Below, piece after piece: positions 9,388 to 40,411 of a DNA stretch of 64,000 nt. A program made the position numbers and the translations under genes. The stretch comes from Chlorobaculum tepidum TLS (lineage in GTDB: Bacteria; Bacteroidota; Chlorobiia; Chlorobiales; Chlorobiaceae), in contig NC_002932.3 of assembly GCF_000006985.1 (NCBI RefSeq), forward strand, positions 643,501-707,500. Reading direction: 5' to 3'. The notes beneath the pieces are model-generated. The model saw only the letters and a program-made list of their open reading frames with translations, was not told the DNA's origin and searched no databases. Every line of letters begins with the position of its first letter. Within the stretch, counting starts at the first letter, position 1.

Positions 9388-10365
9388 AAAACGGCGTCGA
9401 TACGGATTTCGGGCAAAAGAGGAAAACTCCAGGGAGGCATTCCGTGGAGCAGACAACCCAGCTGTTAGTCGCTCATGCGGATGGCCGGTTGTACCTGTTG
9501 AGATTTATACAACGGGCAATATAATAAACAGCCTTTATTCAGGGAGCAATCGTAGTGACGACGAGTTACGAGTACCAGCGGGAGAACGTGATTTGCCGGT
9601 AGATGGCATCGCAGGAGCTTCGCGATGCCGCTCTTCGGAAGCCGGAAATGAGTTGACGGCCATACGGACTGGCAGGGTGTGAGCGCGGCAAAGTGTTGGT
9701 ATAACCGATAACCTTCGTTATGTCTATAATTGGTTGGTCTGTATGAACCTGACGGTTTGAAGTAACTGTCAATTGTCAGGTCTTTGATTATGATTTTTAG
9801 GTTGTCTTAAAAAGGAATTCATTCTTGTTTTCGGTTCTTCGCAGAATTTCGTGGGTGACATGAAGGATGCTCACATGACCATCCCTGATGAACAAGTTTA
9901 ACAGTTCGGTCAAAGCCATTTATAACCACCATTTACCCACGATATTCTGCGAAGAACCCATTTTTCTTGTATCCTTTGCTGCTAGCCAGTAAGGCTTTAC
10001 CAACCCGATGAGCAAATCTGTTGGACAGAGTGGTCAGTTCCGCTGTTTTGGTCGTATATGTACAATACTCAGCGGAGGCTAATCTGAGGCTTAACCACGC
10101 GCAGACGAGAGCGGATGTTGTGGCCTTGGTGGCAGTTGCCCGTAACGTTTATAACGTAGATGGCGGTGATGAGTCTGGCGGCTTCAGCTCACAACAGCTC
10201 CCCATTGATCCCCCCGCAACTTTCCGCCCGCGAACTTTGTGAAATTTGTGCAAATTACCGCTTGGCAGGCTTGCGTGGCCTGCATTAACATCTTTGTCTG
10301 TCGTACATTCAATCTCGTAAAATGTCAAGAGCGTCACTGGCTGACTGGCTCGGCGTAATCGAATT
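9388..10365. other. long intergenic region between mfd and the ABC ATPase gene
   Basis: About 980 bases with no convincing gene. It holds one MITE-like element (9833-9958) and an eight-pair hairpin at 9605-9629 (GGCATCGC with GCGATGCC). The short frames here have no recognisable motifs and poor starts. Mfd and the ABC ATPase gene are divergent, so promoters for both should lie here, but I could not assign them. A structured RNA is possible around the hairpin; I matched no known family. Confidence 0.5.
9833..9958 (-). mobile_element. MITE-like element, copy A (126 bp)
   Basis: The element is bounded by 24-base terminal inverted repeats (9833-9856 and 9935-9958) with one mismatch. Read on the minus strand it has a terminal repeat, an ATG at 9919 and an open frame MALTELLNLFIRDGHVSILHVTHEILRRT that runs straight through the other terminal repeat. 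This looks like the 5' end of a transposase gene joined to the far end of its insertion sequence, that is, a non-autonomous deletion derivative. A longer relative in opposite orientation is at 36453-36677. Family not certain; ISL3-like ends are my best guess. Confidence 0.7.
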
Positions 10366-34151: not shown

Positions 34152-34346
34152 GACCGATTGGCCGTAGGGGTTCCCGTTCGCCTTCACGAGCTGTCTGCTT
34201 GAAAACAAGCATCCCTTCTCACAAGTATATATTCTTCCGTGCCCCAACACGTAACGGCAGCACAGTTCTCAGACCAGCCGGGTGAATTCAGTGAAAATCA
34301 ATACCTTGAAAAAAGCAGTCACTCAGCTCAGTATCGGAGATTCATG

Positions 34347-34910
34347 ATGAACCCATCAAAAATTTTCGCCTTGGCCATCGCGTGCGGTATCGTTCTGTTG
34401 ACGTTCAACTGGATGGCTCAGGCTCAGGTAATGTATGAACCGCTTCAGAACAAGGCGCCGCTGAGCATCTACAAGTATCCGAGAGTCAAGCTGGGTGCTG
34501 ACCTGGAAGCAAATCTCACCCTGATCAAAGCCGATAACGGAAGGCTCAATATTACCGGCACAGTAACAAATGTGGGCAAAAGCAGTTGCAAGACAGCATC
34601 CGTGGCTGAACTGATTATGAATCTGGGTTATGCTCCACAGTATTCTTACGCGAAAACCGGTGTGTCGGACATTCTTGTTTCCAGGTCTTTCAACAATCTC
34701 AAGGCGGGCGATTCCATAGTGGTCAATGCGGTTTACCAGATTCCGGATTTTGGCGGCTGGGCATCCGCCAATCTGCCAGGCAATGCCAAACGCCTTTTCA
34801 CCCTCCGCGTCATCAAGCAGGATGCTTCATCCTACAAACCAGATGAAGACAGCAATATCGAGAACAATGTCGCAGACGACGTTGTGTTCTATCGGGATTT
34901 GACACACTGA
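34347..34910 (+). CDS. exported hypothetical protein
   Basis: A 187-residue protein with a signal peptide (MNPSKIFALAIACGIVLLTFNWMAQA, cleavage after AQA likely). The mature part has a CARDB-like beta pattern (RLNITGTVTNVGKSSCKTASVAELIMN and AGDSIVVNAVYQIPDFGGW). It probably acts in the periplasm or on the surface; function unknown. Two consecutive ATGs (34344 and 34347) are possible, with GGAG upstream. Base composition resembles the backbone again. Confidence 0.75.
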   Translation: MNPSKIFALAIACGIVLLTFNWMAQAQVMYEPLQNKAPLSIYKYPRVKLGADLEANLTLIKADNGRLNITGTVTNVGKSSCKTASVAELIMNLGYAPQYSYAKTGVSDILVSRSFNNLKAGDSIVVNAVYQIPDFGGWASANLPGNAKRLFTLRVIKQDASSYKPDEDSNIENNVADDVVFYRDLTH

Positions 34911-34922
34911 AAGAGTGGCGCA

Positions 34923-35171
34923 ATGAATGACTTTGAGGCATTGGTCAAGATGGCATGGTCGCAATATGGCCATAAGGTTGGCTTGATCGATATCCAGGTT
35001 GAAGGAAGACCCGGCATCGGTTTCAGGTACAAATTTTCGGAATCAGGTTTGGCCGGCCGCTTTATGCGCCTGAGGCGGCTTCATAACAGCTATGAGCCAA
35101 TGTTTGCCAATACCCCCTCAGGTACGAAGGGTACGAAGGGAATGATGCCGTGGAAATCTGGGAGCAACTGA
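34923..35171 (+). CDS. small hypothetical protein
   Basis: An 82-residue basic protein starting 12 bases after the exported protein's stop: MNDFEALVKMAWSQYGHKVGLIDIQVEGRPGIGFRYKFSESG. No family recognised. The last 20 residues come from a short tandem-like stretch (GGTACGAAGGGTACGAAGG) and may not be original coding sequence. Confidence 0.45.
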   Translation: MNDFEALVKMAWSQYGHKVGLIDIQVEGRPGIGFRYKFSESGLAGRFMRLRRLHNSYEPMFANTPSGTKGTKGMMPWKSGSN

Positions 35172-35290
35172 CAAGGGATACTGAGCCTTTGATGGAGAGG
35201 TGAGGTTTCGTTGGCCGAACTTTTTCTTCCTTTTTCCCTTCCTTGAGTGCGGTTTGCGAATTGTGCCTTCCATAACTTGGAACTGAAATA

Positions 35291-35725
35291 ATGGTTATCG
35301 GCGACGTCGTTTGCGCCATCATCGAGCGTGATGGCCGGTTTCTCATAGCCCGGAGACCGGAGGGGAAACATCTTGCACGGAAATGGGAGTTCCCGGGCGG
35401 CAAGGTCGAGGCTGGCGAATCGGAGGCAGCAGCGCTTGATCGGGAGCTCCAGGAAGAGCTTGGAGTGAGGGTGGAAATTATCGAACGCCTCACTCCGGTC
35501 GAGCACAGCTACCCGGACCGGTCGCTTCGGTTGATCGCTTTTCGTTGCAGGATTGTCGATGGAGTGCCGGATGCTGGCGAGCATGAGGAGCTGCGATGGA
35601 TCGAAATCGATGAAGCCGGCGCATACGATTTTCCGGAGGCAGATCTTCCCATTCTTGCCGAGTATCGCCTCAAAATCGCCGCTGTGCCACCGGGTGCTCC
35701 CGATCAGCTGCATAAAGCGGATTGA
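35291..35725 (+). CDS. MutT-like Nudix pyrophosphohydrolase
   Basis: A 144-residue protein with the Nudix box GGKVEAGESEAAALDRELQEELG (G-x5-E-x7-REL-x-EE-x-G) and the MutT-type lead-in RRPEGKHLARKWEFPGGK. It probably removes 8-oxo-dGTP or related oxidised nucleotides from the pool. The C-terminal residues WIEIDEAGAYDFPEADLPIL match the MutT end. Monocistronic as far as can be seen. Confidence 0.9.
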   Translation: MVIGDVVCAIIERDGRFLIARRPEGKHLARKWEFPGGKVEAGESEAAALDRELQEELGVRVEIIERLTPVEHSYPDRSLRLIAFRCRIVDGVPDAGEHEELRWIEIDEAGAYDFPEADLPILAEYRLKIAAVPPGAPDQLHKAD

Positions 35726-36039
35726 GTACAGCTCTTTTCAGGGAGGGCAAGGTTCATTGTTCCGGCTGAACGGGCGCAGTTCCGTGTCGTGCCTGGTGAA
35801 CGCTCGCGTGATTTTTCAGCATTGATTGTTCTTAAGGCTTATATTTCAGGCGAGTGCAAATATGCGGTGATCCTTTTGCACCGACCAATGAGGCACGAAA
35901 GAGCGTATGCGGGCATTCCGGTTATGATTGAAACAATCACCTGGCGGAGTGACCGGGGATAAGGAGGATCGCCGTACTGCGGATCAATGGTCGTGCTTTT
36001 GTGAGCCGCTATCACAAAGAGCATATTCAGCTGTTCGAA

Positions 36040-36173
36040 ACTGCCGGCGTGTTGGCGTTCATACCCTCGCCGAACTGAGTGCTATCAAGCCTGCAACACG
36101 CGACGAAATGCTCGCTGTTTCAGGAATTGGCGAGGTGAAGTTGGAGCGTTATGCGGAGGCTTTTTGCGGGTGA
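36040..36173 (+). pseudogene. HRDC-domain (RecQ-like) C-terminal fragment
   Basis: The last 38 codons before the stop at 36173 read HTLAELSAIKPATRDEMLAVSGIGEVKLERYAEAF, the end of an HRDC nucleic-acid-binding domain as found in RecQ. A different frame just upstream (IQLFETAGV) resembles the domain start, so the gene is broken by frameshift and truncation. The adjoining 35726-36039 has no other supported feature. Confidence 0.45.
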
Positions 36174-36216
36174 TTGGTGGGGAGTAGGGGGAAAATTGTT
36201 GCGTTGGAGGTTTAAG

Positions 36217-36399
36217 ATGAAAACTGAAAATATCGGCACCAATTTCGATGATTTTCTTCAAGAGGAAGGGCTTCTTGACGAAGCAAACGCCGTGGCGATC
36301 AAACGGGTGATTGTCTGGCAGATCGGTCAGGAGATGAAAGCACAGAAGCTGAATATTATCGCGAGAAACGACGATACTGAGAAAGAAATTTCGTTTTGA
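36217..36399 (+). CDS. small XRE-antitoxin-like protein, probably truncated
   Basis: A 60-residue protein with a GGAGG site seven bases upstream. MKTENIGTNFDDFLQEEGLLDEANAVAIKRVIVWQIGQEMKAQKL is the usual N terminus of small XRE-type antitoxin regulators. The expected helix-turn-helix after QKL is replaced by an unrelated tail. It is probably a truncated gene, interrupted close to the nearby MITE copy. Confidence 0.5.
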   Translation: MKTENIGTNFDDFLQEEGLLDEANAVAIKRVIVWQIGQEMKAQKLNIIARNDDTEKEISF

Positions 36400-36452
36400 G
36401 CTGGAGGGGTAAGGCTTGGTTTTGAATGCGTCGTTATTTACCTTTTAAAGGA

Positions 36453-36677
36453 GATTGTTCGCAGAATATCGTGGGTAAATAGTGAATATGGGTCAATCGA
36501 CTGAGGCACGGCCAAAACGAATGCGCTCTGCAAAGAGTGTCCGGCCAAAGGATAAATCACCTTAACGCTTTATCATATGATGAGTTATAAATGTCTTTGA
36601 CCGAACTGTTAAACTTGTTCATCAGGGATGGTCATGTGAGCATCCTTCATGCCACCCACGAAATTCTGCGAAGAACC
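36453..36677 (+). mobile_element. MITE-like element, copy B (225 bp)
   Basis: The right end (36654-36677) is a 24-base terminal repeat identical to the left end of copy A at 9833; the left end (36453-36476) is a degenerate version. An internal stretch of about 75 bases (roughly 36580-36654) matches copy A almost base for base on the opposite strand, again with a frame LTELLNLFIRDGHVSILHATHEILRRT. Copy B has about 100 extra internal bases, so copy A is probably a further deletion. No transposase is present. Confidence 0.7.
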
Positions 36678-36683
36678 TAATTA

Positions 36684-36803
36684 TGAAGTATTTGGATGTT
36701 GTAAAAAAGGCTGACACCATAGGGCTTTTTACTATAAAAAATGATATCGATATGGAATCGGTACAAAAAGATTATGAGGCATATAAGCTCAACCCAGAAT
36801 AAA
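36684..36803 (+). CDS. 39-residue ORF ahead of the first attC-like site
   Basis: ATG at 36684 gives MKYLDVVKKADTIGLFTIKNDIDMESVQKDYEAYKLNPE. It ends three bases before the attC-like site, the position of a cassette gene's 3' end. No family recognised; it may be the tail of a cassette cut by the MITE. Confidence 0.3.
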
Positions 36804-36805
36804 TC

Positions 36806-36877
36806 ACATAACAAGGCGCTGCACCGGGCGGCAATTCCGCTGCGCTCCATTGCCGCCGGTGAGCTTGGTCGTTAGCT
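36806..36877 (+). other. integron attC-like recombination site 1
   Basis: Boundaries TAAC at 36809-36812 and GTTAGCT at 36871-36877 act as the paired core sites. Between them CACCGG-g-CGGCAAT pairs with ATTGCCG-CCGGTG, leaving one unpaired G in the stem, and a further extra G separates GCT from this stem. Unpaired bases of this kind set the active strand of attC sites. Confidence 0.75.
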
Positions 36878-36905
36878 TTCGAACGAGATCATTAAGGACG
36901 GTGGC

Positions 36906-37607
36906 ATGGACTTGCTGGTTGTTCTTGCAATAGTCTTAGGCGTAGCTGCAATTTTTGTTCTCCTCCACCTCCGCCCGCTCACGGATGATGAGGTCCGAGT
37001 GTTGGCAGATCGGCGGAGAACAAAGACTATCAATTCCTATTACACGTTCGACAGAAAAGAATACTCCGTCAGCGCAGAATTTAAGAAGCGTATGGCGGCA
37101 AATGGTTCGTTCTATAATATTTCAGAACGATTGTTCGAGTTTCCCGCTCTCGCCGCGGGGCTACTGAAATACAAAAAACACGAATGGATCATAGTAGCGT
37201 TTGAACGAAACAAAGTCATCGCCAAGATGTGGGTCAACAAAGGGCCGGATCGATCGCAGGTTCATTTTGGAATTAGTCTGCCGAGTGTTCAGCAAATAGC
37301 GGCAAATGGTAACTACCGCTCCGTTTTGGTCTTTCACAATCATCCAAACTCAGATCCGTCGCTGTACTCAACCCGGCAAGCAAGCGATCGAGACAAGCAG
37401 ACCGCTGGCGAACTGGCGGCTCAACTGAGATCGGCAGGGGTAAACCTCATAGAGTTCGTCTGTGAACGAGGCAGACATTACGAGTACTGGCGCTCGGTGT
37501 GCGATACGTTCTTGCCTCTCGAGGGCTTCCGTGAAGAGATCTGTAAGGTTAACGGCTCCAGCCGAGGTCAAAACTTTTCTCTTCATTGGGAGCGTCTGTT
37601 CGGATAA
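36906..37607 (+). CDS. membrane-anchored JAMM/MPN-type protein (integron cassette gene)
   Basis: A 233-residue protein. Residues 1-22 form one TM helix (LLVVLAIVLGVAAIFVLLHL). The C-terminal domain is RadC/JAB-like: FHNHPNSDPSLYSTRQASDRD near residue 143 supplies H-x-H and the downstream S...D of a JAMM zinc site. It may be a metalloprotease or deubiquitinase-like hydrolase facing the cytosol; substrate unknown. It lies between two attC-like sites in the orientation of a gene cassette (gene then attC), the strongest clue to its mobility. Confidence 0.75.
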   Translation: MDLLVVLAIVLGVAAIFVLLHLRPLTDDEVRVLADRRRTKTINSYYTFDRKEYSVSAEFKKRMAANGSFYNISERLFEFPALAAGLLKYKKHEWIIVAFERNKVIAKMWVNKGPDRSQVHFGISLPSVQQIAANGNYRSVLVFHNHPNSDPSLYSTRQASDRDKQTAGELAAQLRSAGVNLIEFVCERGRHYEYWRSVCDTFLPLEGFREEICKVNGSSRGQNFSLHWERLFG

Positions 37608-37636
37608 TAGTGGCGCTATGCGCGGACAAACACGAA

Positions 37637-37709
37637 AGCTAACAAGCGCCTGCACGCGGATGGCCTACAGCCTTTTGCTTCCGGCCACCCGTGAGGCGCA
37701 CCGTTAGAC
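37637..37709 (+). other. integron attC-like recombination site 2
   Basis: Core sites are AGCTAAC (37637-37643) and GTTAGAC (37703-37709). The stem pairs GCGCCT-g-CACG-c-GG-a-TGGCC with GGCCA-CC-CGTG-AGGCGC: every base of the second arm pairs and the first arm has three extrahelical bases, the hallmark of attC. It starts 30 bases after the JAMM gene stop. Confidence 0.82.
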
Positions 37710-37751
37710 TCCTGCATCAATCCCTTCTCTACAAAATCCACACCCAGCATT

Positions 37752-37811
37752 CTACCGCACCGTCATCTTTCTGAAACTCATCGTGAGCGCGTCGAACATC
37801 AGCAGCGCGTC
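37752..37811 (-). pseudogene. C-terminal tail of a second ThiF/MoeB-like gene
   Basis: The minus strand reads DALLMFDALTMSFRKMTVR and a stop, close to the end of the intact ThiF at 38610 (DALMTFDALTMSFRKVAVRR). It is a diverged duplicate of about 50 bases, located on the far side of the MNT/HEPN pair. Confidence 0.6.
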
Positions 37812-37842
37812 GTGACTTATCTTTATCTTCCGAACCAGCCAG

Positions 37843-38173
37843 TCATAGCCGTTTAATCGTCTTATAAAATATCGGAAGATCATATTCTACAATATCATAA
37901 ACCATCTCGTCGCTGACAACATCATATCCGTGAGACAGAACATTCCTGAAGCCAATGATGTCCTTTGCTGATGGGATTTTGCTCAAAGAGTTCAGGCATT
38001 TCATCTCTTATTCTGCGCAGAATTTCGCCGATGATTTCAAACTCTCGTTCGACAGCCCTTTTTACAATCAAGTTATCAGAATATTCAACAGCCGTTAAAT
38101 CACCAACAAACTGCTGGATGTGCTCGCAAGCTTCTCGCAGATCGATAAGCCAAGTCTCTTTGTCACGCTTCAT
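37843..38173 (-). pseudogene. HepT-like HEPN toxin, frameshifted
   Basis: From the ATG at 38173: MKRDKETWLIDLREACEHIQQFVGDLTAVEYSDNLIVKRAVEREFEIIGEILRRI, a DUF86/HEPN start. After NPISK one extra base puts the conserved RNase part in another frame: DIIGFRNVLSHGYDVVSDEMVYDIVEYDLPIFY, with the R-x4-H motif RNVLSH, ending at 37843. The single-base change should silence the toxin. It overlaps its antitoxin gene by 11 bases. Confidence 0.75.
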
Positions 38174-38450
38174 AAATCACCTTCTCGTCTTGCAAGACAC
38201 TGGCCTCGAATCGTTTGTTTCTCATGGCTGATCGTTCGATAAGATCGACCTTTCGGTGAAACAGCTTCTCGAATCTCTTCTTTGTTTCCATGTACTGCCT
38301 CAAAGGACTGCCCTGACGTTTGAACTCTACCAGCAAGTCAACATCGCTCTCAGGCCCTTCATCGCCTCTGGCAATCGAACCGACGATGCTTAATTTCCTG
38401 ACCGAACACTCTTTGCAAATGGTTCGGAGCATATCGAGTGGTATTTCCAT
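38163..38450 (-). CDS. MntA-like nucleotidyltransferase antitoxin
   Basis: A 95-residue minimal nucleotidyltransferase: MEIPLDMLRTICKECSVRKLSIVGSIARGDEGPESDVDLLVEF shows GS-x10-D-x-D. The C-terminal HRKVDLIERSAM supplies the third Asp. Antitoxins of this kind neutralise HEPN toxins by AMP transfer. It is intact while its partner HepT is frameshifted. The frame is open to 38537, but the ATG at 38450 is the natural start. Confidence 0.82.
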   Translation of the reverse strand: MEIPLDMLRTICKECSVRKLSIVGSIARGDEGPESDVDLLVEFKRQGSPLRQYMETKKRFEKLFHRKVDLIERSAMRNKRFEASVLQDEKVIYEA

Positions 38451-38609
38451 GAGTTGGCTACCCGGATTCTTGGTTTGCACTTTTGCTTGAAACGCTGTGC
38501 CTCGGTGTAAAGTAGCATTAATCCCGAATATCGTCAACGAGTCGATGCCGCGTTCAACTCGTGCGAAAATCAGGGGATGCTCACCGCAGTGCTCTCAGGC
38601 AGCAGTTTT

Positions 38610-39347
38610 TCATCCACACAACGCACATCTTGAATTCCTCCGTACCGCGACTTTGCGGAAACTCATCGTGAGCGCATCGAACGTCATCAGCGCGTCGGTC
38701 AGCAGTGTGCCGATGTTGAGCAAATATTTGATCGCTTCGATGGCTTGAATCGATCCGATGACGCCCGGCAGTGCGCCGATAGGGCCTTGTGGAATAGCCT
38801 CTTTTGATTCGTCCTCTTCGTGGAAGATGCAGCAGTAGCAGGCTGTTTGCCCGGGGATGATGGTCATGGTCTGGCCGTGGAAGTTACGGATTCCGCCGTG
38901 AGACCATGGTTTCGATGCTTCGTGGCAGGCGCGAGCGATGAGGAAGCGGGATGCGAAGTTGTCCGTGGCGTCGATGACGAAGTCGTATCTGGCGAGAATT
39001 TCCGTGGCGTTCTCTTTTCTCAGCCGGAAGGGGTGAGTTTCGATGCGGATCGACGGGTCGAGCGCTTTGAGACGCTCCTGCGCCGAGGCGGTTTTATTCG
39101 CACCGACCGAGGCGGTCGTGTGCAGAATCTGCCGTTGCAGGTTCGAGAGATCGACCGTGTCGCCGTCCATGAGGCCAATGGTGCCGACACCTGCTGCGGC
39201 AAGGTAGAACGCAGCAGGGGAGCCGAGGCCGCCTGCACCGATGACCAGCACTTTCGAGTGCAGCAGCTTCTCTTGCCCCGCCTCGCCAACTTCCGGCAGC
39301 GCGAGGTGGCGGGCGTAGCGCTGGCACTGCTCGTCGCTGAGGCTCAC
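38610..39347 (-). CDS. thiF: ThiS adenylyltransferase ThiF (HesA/MoeB/ThiF family)
   Basis: A 245-residue E1-like enzyme that adenylates the ThiS C terminus for sulfur transfer in thiazole synthesis. Nucleotide-binding loop: VLVIGAGGLGSPAAFYLAAAGVGTIGLMDGDTVDLSNLQRQ. Zinc ligands: CYCC and the C-terminal CALC. The GTG start at 39347 overlaps the thiH stop as GTGA, so it is the last gene of thiSGHF. A MoeB role in molybdopterin synthesis may be shared, as the families are hard to separate by eye. Confidence 0.9.
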   Translation of the reverse strand: MSLSDEQCQRYARHLALPEVGEAGQEKLLHSKVLVIGAGGLGSPAAFYLAAAGVGTIGLMDGDTVDLSNLQRQILHTTASVGANKTASAQERLKALDPSIRIETHPFRLRKENATEILARYDFVIDATDNFASRFLIARACHEASKPWSHGGIRNFHGQTMTIIPGQTACYCCIFHEEDESKEAIPQGPIGALPGVIGSIQAIEAIKYLLNIGTLLTDALMTFDALTMSFRKVAVRRNSRCALCG

Positions 39348-40411
39348 GTGCACTCCTCTGCGGGCAGGGGGTTGTTGTAGGCCGCGTCCCAGTTTTTGAA
39401 CACTGGTTCCAGATCTTTTGCGCGCAATGCGGCGCAAAACGCTTCGACGCTTCGGTTGTCGCTCACCTCGAACTGGCTGGCTCCAGCCGTCTCCTTTTCG
39501 ACGTAGCCGCCAACGGTGGTGCGGCTGGCGATGCTCATGCGGGTGATGCCGAGGCCAGCCATGCCGTCCCGAAAATTCGAACTCTCTCGCGTCGAGAGCA
39601 CCAGATCGACATCCGGCATTCCGATGCGGAAGGCGAAGATCATTCGTGCGAGGAAGCGATCCGAGACCGTGAAGCTGGGCTGAAAGCCGCCCTCCTGCGG
39701 GCGGATGCGGGGAAAGGAGACCGTGACGCCTGCTTTCCAGTACGTTTTGCACAGATACCGCGCGTGGCGCAACACGGCGAGCGCTTCGCCGACCGGCTCC
39801 GACAGGCCGAGCAGTGCGCCGATGCCGACGCTCCGGATGCCGCCGGTGATGGCGCGTTCCGGCGTTTCGAGCCGTTCGAGGAAATCCTGCTTCGGCCCCC
39901 AGCGGTGCAGCTCGCGGTAATGATCCGGATCGTAGGTTTCCTGGTAAATCGTCAGGCCGGTGCACCCACATTCGGCCAGGCCGCGATACTCTGCGACGCT
40001 CATCGGAAACGCCTCGACGGCTACGCGCGGCATGTGGCGGGCGGCGATATCCACGGCGCGACGCAGATAGTCGAATCCCACCGAGTTGGTGCGCTCGCCG
40101 GTGAGCAGCAAAACGTCGCTGACGCCGAGAGCCTTCATTGCGAGCAGCTCCTTTTCGATTTCGTCAGTATCCAGCTTGCGGCGCGGCGAACGTCTGTCCG
40201 AAGCGAAGCCGCAATAGACGCAACCGCTCGAGCAGAAGTTGGAGAGGTAGAGCGGCGTATAGAGCGAAATGACGCGCCCGAAACGGCGCAGTGTCACTGC
40301 CTGCGCTTCGGCGGCAAGCCGTTCGAGCGACTCGTTATCCGTTTGTCGCAACAGCGGTTCGATATCTTCCGACAGCCGCTCGTCGGTCAGCCATGCGGGC
40401 AGCGCAATCAT
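39344..40411 (-). CDS. thiH: 2-iminoacetate synthase ThiH
   Basis: A 355-residue radical SAM enzyme cleaving tyrosine to dehydroglycine for the thiazole ring. The cluster motif C-x3-C-x2-C is in [17 protein letters not shown]. Later conserved stretches include [27 protein letters not shown] and [14 protein letters not shown] at 40411 overlaps the thiG stop as ATGA; the frame upstream of it (to 40834) is antisense-like and rejected. Its use implies an anaerobic tyrosine route instead of ThiO, fitting a strict anaerobe. Confidence 0.95.

Follow-up and report, generated by a model that had tools for sequence, protein, structure and literature searches.

How does a single gene come to lie between two sites that resemble integron attC sites, in a region that carries no integrase gene? 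The question is raised by a locus in the 64-kb window analyzed here, a continuous stretch of the Chlorobaculum tepidum TLS chromosome (NC_002932.3, positions 643,501 to 707,500), in which the gene encodes a membrane-anchored JAMM protein. A SAM-Chlorobi riboswitch is in keeping with this strain. Positions below are those of the window unless the genome is named. The features of the locus, from left to right, are as follows.

36063-36177, + strand: 3' remnant of recQ (HRDC domain); the recQ interior is missing here and present in relatives
36217-36399, + strand: small gene left of the cassette zone
36452-36678, + strand: MITE- or IS-like insert with 25-nt inverted ends (36452-36476 and 36654-36678)
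36679-36871, + strand: 3' end of a first cassette, left part lost, with a 39-codon ORF (36683-36802)
36806-36877, + strand: attC site 1, with R'' ACATAAC (36806-36812) and R' GTTAGCT (36871-36877); predicted cut after 36871
36872-37703, + strand: complete gene cassette of 832 bp, from TTAGCT to the G of G^TT
36906-37607, + strand: JAMM (RadC-like) gene, 233 aa, with a TM helix at about residues 2 to 20
37637-37709, + strand: attC site 2, with R'' AGCTAAC (37637-37643) and R' GTTAGAC (37703-37709); predicted cut after 37703
37704-37812, + strand: right array boundary, a diverged copy of the thiF 3' end
37922-38173 and 38163-38537, - strand: HepT-like/MntA-like toxin-antitoxin pair, between two diverged thiF tails
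38610-39353 (approximate extent), - strand: thiF, which bounds the cassette zone in the genus

The initial annotation placed two attC-like sites with paired core sequences at 36806-37709, and both are present there, on the + strand. Each has R'' and R' boxes (RYYYAAC-like and GTTRRRY-like, respectively) around paired L boxes, with outer box bases that depart slightly from the strict attC consensus. The imperfect palindromes with extrahelical bases on one arm, also part of that annotation, were confirmed by folding: the bottom strands of both sites form long hairpins in which bulged bases occur on the R''/L'' arm only. Relative to shuffled sequences, site 2 folds far better (z = -4.5) and site 1 slightly better (z = -1.8). 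When the window was scanned on both strands for R''/R' boxes with pairing arms, these two sites ranked first and second (scores of 15.8 and 15.5), and the next best candidate scored 12.0.

Because an Rfam search returned no family covering either site, an attC covariance model was built. It was trained on 16 attC sites, all from other genomes, with sources including the class 1 integron of R388 (two cassettes), the array of Thiolapillus plasmid pTBH13, and an array on a Syntrophaceae contig; both window sites and close copies of site 1 were left out, and inner loops were trimmed. The training alignment itself shows covariation beyond that of shuffles and slides. The only matches of the model in the window are site 1 (50.2 bits, E of 8e-11) and site 2 (32.2 bits, E of 5e-6), the E-values being rough by the tool's own statement. 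Across the 2.15-Mb genome, the corresponding E-values are 2.8e-9 and 1.7e-4, ten matches have an E of <0.02, and the eleventh has an E of 4.7. Both sites score far above noise. False positives of the model are rare, since syntenic DNA of relatives, 247,619 bases in total, yielded only one match, which adjoins thiF. Furthermore, a Geoalkalibacter plasmid carries an attC that matches site 1 at 97% identity across 66 bases; the identity of site 1 is approximately 92% to an attC of Citrobacter plasmid pLNU-11, which a group II intron abuts, and 88% to one attC in the Thiolapillus array.

Palindromes are common near gene ends and the z score of site 1 is modest, which might be taken to mean that the two sites are terminators or unrelated hairpins resembling attC by chance. 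The covariance-model E-values in the window and the near-identical sites on plasmids argue against this, as do the exact complementarity of R'' and the left end of the cassette and the divergence of the window from a relative just at G^TT, both described below. A chance resemblance is therefore extremely improbable and was rejected on the covariance-model scores.

Judged from its sequence, 36872-37703 is a genuine integron gene cassette. Its layout is that of one gene followed by attC and ending at G^TT, which bears out the earlier description of a single gene in gene-then-attC order between two sites: one ORF (36906-37607) lies between them. When a cassette circularizes, its left end is joined to the R'' arm of the same cassette, and the two should therefore be complementary. 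Here, the left end (GTTAGCT, 36871-36877) and the site 2 R'' box (AGCTAAC, 37637-37643) are exact reverse complements. The GTTAGAC at the right of site 2 belongs to the following sequence. GTTATGT, the left end expected for the cassette to which site 1 itself belongs, is absent upstream.

The truncated first cassette is abutted by the MITE-like insert at 36452-36678, of which partial copies occur at 9830-9958 and which occupies the position of intI and the att site in relatives. This proximity is in favor of an IS or other transposon having inserted the JAMM gene with the attC sites as passengers and without an integrase, but the inverted repeats span only 227 bp to the left of the cassette, the cassette ends are G^TT rather than IS ends, and the JAMM gene itself has no flanking pair of terminal repeats. 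Insertion by a transposon is thus very unlikely, and integrase-mediated insertion of a cassette is the preferred reading.

Where, then, is the integrase? None was reported in the window initially, and indeed no complete IntI is encoded in the window or in the whole genome. The possibility that the site is acted on by a full integron at another genomic location was considered and rejected, as the genome otherwise contains only one IntI-like C-terminal fragment (at genome position 1488565, beside different repeats) and Xer-like genes. Relatives are more informative. In the genus, mutT-recQ and thiF form the two borders of a variable interval. One relative (G149) encodes a complete IntI (TIGR02249, 471 bits) between recQ and the contig end; the contig stops just after intI, and a separate thiF contig starts inside an MNT gene that is 95% identical to that of the window. 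Four other genomes (G148, G157, G152, and G020) retain a C-terminal IntI remnant of 26 to 34 residues in the same interval. The order in G148 is intI remnant, att motif CAGTCTAAACATTGTTAGGC, a different cassette, attC, and thiF. At the last predicted G^TT cut, the window and G148 are identical at 95 of 110 positions rightward and at 26 of 60 leftward, and this match on the right with mismatch on the left indicates that the two differ up to the predicted integrase cut point; the G148 array stops at this same junction. In the sister species (G106), recQ is complete and the locus contains other genes and no cassette.

Because the recQ-thiF interval of relatives contains intI, either complete or as a 3' remnant, the locus is best read as the leftover of a local integron. 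The two options first offered, part of a distant array or an orphan cassette, are refined to a remnant of an integron at the same locus, and the cassette is not a stray one. The locus is thus very probably the residue of an ancestral sedentary chromosomal integron at recQ-thiF whose integrase has been lost, i.e., a CALIN. The former IntI would have bound attC in the form of its folded bottom strand and, by cutting at G^TT, inserted the JAMM cassette, the source of which may have been an environmental pool shared across phyla. Subsequently, intI and its attachment site would have been lost, the MITE-like insert now standing in their place, so as to leave the 3' end of the first cassette with its attC and then the complete JAMM cassette, ending at what would be the old array boundary by thiF. 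Given that neither the locus nor the rest of the genome supplies an integrase, the cassette would now be fixed unless an integrase acts in trans. The original integron is reconstructed from relatives because the window lacks the 5' attachment site of the array, and we infer parallel decay of an ancestral chromosomal integron, in which the window represents the most reduced of the cassette-bearing forms.

In G149, in G154, and in several sister-genus genomes, intI is followed by an att motif on the same strand. Wherever intI is complete in Chlorobiaceae genomes, a long att-type motif, GGCGGATCARTMTAAAYAWTGTTRG, comes after it. The same motif is found in 61 of 86 genomes, often in several copies and mostly without an intI being found, and a reversed-pattern control gave no matches. 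Copies of this type in the C. tepidum genome are located at 349043, 1567968, 1638017, and 1647750.

The flanks of the cassette zone bear on how the segment entered this genome. Matches of recQ to relatives break at 36062/36063, and recQ is complete in G148 and G106. The small gene at 36217-36399 has an internal deletion that is common to the window and G148, and it is full length in G149. The copy of the thiF tail at 37704-37812, the stretch in which the window matches G148 to the right of the cut, is only approximately 72% identical to the resident copy at 38594-38697. The HepT/MntA-like pair has no bounding attC, and its MNT part has a 95% identical counterpart beside thiF in G149. The HepT-like ORF of this pair matches the first half of the HepT profile only.

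These features raise the alternative that the cassette reached this genome not by integrase action at this locus in this lineage but as part of a recQ-to-thiF segment that homologous recombination brought in whole from a G148-like relative with the cassette already in place; we give this alternative an even chance. Import is favored because the thiF tail is present twice, in 72% identical copies of which one is G148-like, and because identity to the sister G106 falls at 36062/36063: the sequence at 34252-36062 is 94.7% identical to G106, whereas that at 36063-37811 has no G106 match and is approximately 76 to 90% identical to other relatives. In addition, G106 has no cassettes, and the segment may therefore have been imported rather than inherited in place. 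Nevertheless, no relative with the JAMM cassette was found among the 85 other genomes of the family, and import would account for entry into the genome and not for identity; the cassette structure and the attC sites stand either way.

Whatever its route, the residual integron can be set against known systems. CALINs are clusters of attC sites lacking an integron-integrase, with at least two attC sites in the IntegronFinder definition (PMC9024848). The locus resembles them in having two same-strand attC sites within 1 kb, no intI alongside, and no complete intI in the genome. A complete integron would have intI beside the array, which is not the case in the window, and the window also lacks both the integrase and the primary att site of the intI-att arrangement seen in G149 and G154. 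CALINs are common and are usually only proposed to be degraded integrons, whereas in the present case the corresponding locus of relatives contains the integrase in complete or decaying form. One locus in one genus thus brings together a complete integrase, a 3' remnant with an att-like site and a cassette, and cassettes on their own, and two species differ in cassette content as far as the predicted cut. Integrons in Chlorobi are already known (PMC2426708 and PMC9024848), as is the orientation of intI toward the att site, as in Treponema (PMC3607928), and membrane proteins are common cassette cargo (PMC9668308). Literature searches found no report of a JAMM protein as cassette cargo and no paper joining integron, attC, and tepidum. 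Integrons in Chlorobi and CALINs being known, the novelty lies in an unusually clear history and an uncharacterized cargo.

The cargo had been described as a TM-anchored JAMM/RadC-like hydrolase, and its TM helix, metal-site residues, and fold match to RadC agree with this. The AlphaFold model (pLDDT of 89.9) consists of one N-terminal helix (residues 2 to 20) and a JAMM domain, and the PDB structure closest to it in fold is RadC of Chlorobium tepidum (2qlc; TM score of 0.62 by target). Similarity to Pfam RadC (PF04002) is weak, at 20.7 bits versus a curated cutoff of 22.1; 12 of 14 homologs match this family at E-values up to 0.1, the best being 3.4e-6. E93, H144, H146, S160, and D163, corresponding to the metal-site E, HxHP, and SxxD, are invariant in the 14 homologs. 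The same holds for NKG, for CERG, and, apart from the position preceding it, for KKHEW. The protein is like the RadC/JAMM (JAB1/MPN/Mov34) zinc metalloprotease domain in the E, HxHP, and SxxD elements and in fold but differs in its N-terminal membrane helix, its longer spacing between HxHP and SxxD (12 residues), and the invariant KKHEW, NKG, and CERG of its family. Its probable activity is that of a zinc-dependent JAMM peptidase or isopeptidase, with one helix as the membrane anchor. Positively charged residues follow the N-terminal helix, which suggests that the catalytic domain is cytoplasmic. PADLOC gave no match for the JAMM protein, and its identification as a known defense protein was rejected.

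Within the family, the JAMM gene is found in 1 of 86 genomes and is absent from the 85 others. Homologs with 34 to 52% identity occur at 17 loci of other phyla, in hosts that include Cloacimonadota, Syntrophaceae, Chloroflexota, Verrucomicrobia, Firmicutes, Methanofollis, Methanolobus, and Woesearchaeota; single host assignments are insecure because several of these loci are in metagenome bins. On a Cloacimonadota contig (L010) the homolog lies between two attC sites, and on a Syntrophaceae contig (L015) it is directly followed by attC; no attC was seen by the homologs at the remaining loci. The two sites of the window are thus not fixed flanks of the gene, as its homologs are accompanied by other attC sites or by none. 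No plasmid or phage homologs were found at 1e-5, and IMG/VR contains only distant JAMM loci of 25% identity. A scan of ten neighbors revealed no partner gene common to the homologs, and the neighbors share no theme. Cassette-based transfer offers a route for the spread of this uncharacterized membrane JAMM family of bacteria and archaea. A broader proposal, which we consider unlikely, is that these proteins form an undescribed family, defined by a TM helix, KKHEW, HNHP-x12-SxxD, and CERG, which is partly spread by cassettes across phyla and archaea and functions as a membrane peptidase in defense or stress.

Array-like regions also occur elsewhere. Four of the attC-model matches in the C. tepidum genome are clustered at 1858008-1865462. 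In this region (G000:C1:1858015-1866640; L080, 6016-14640), an aldo/keto reductase gene, uninterrupted in five relatives, is split by an insert of 8.6 kb that contains four attC sites. The insert carries genes for an enolase, a pyridine nucleotide-disulfide oxidoreductase, a cation-efflux protein, and a CitMHS-like protein; one of its edges is at an attC G^TT, and the left edge misfits simple G^TT integration. The truncated integron-integrase-like C terminus at G000:C1:1488565-1488774 (L001) is followed by several gene units that carry palindromes of the form ...CCCATAAC...GTTATGGG, a second and different array-like region. Thiolapillus plasmid pTBH13 (L066) is a 13-kb plasmid that consists largely of a cassette array that lacks intI and includes at least ten attC sites along with HicAB, HigA, TIR, and caspase-family genes.
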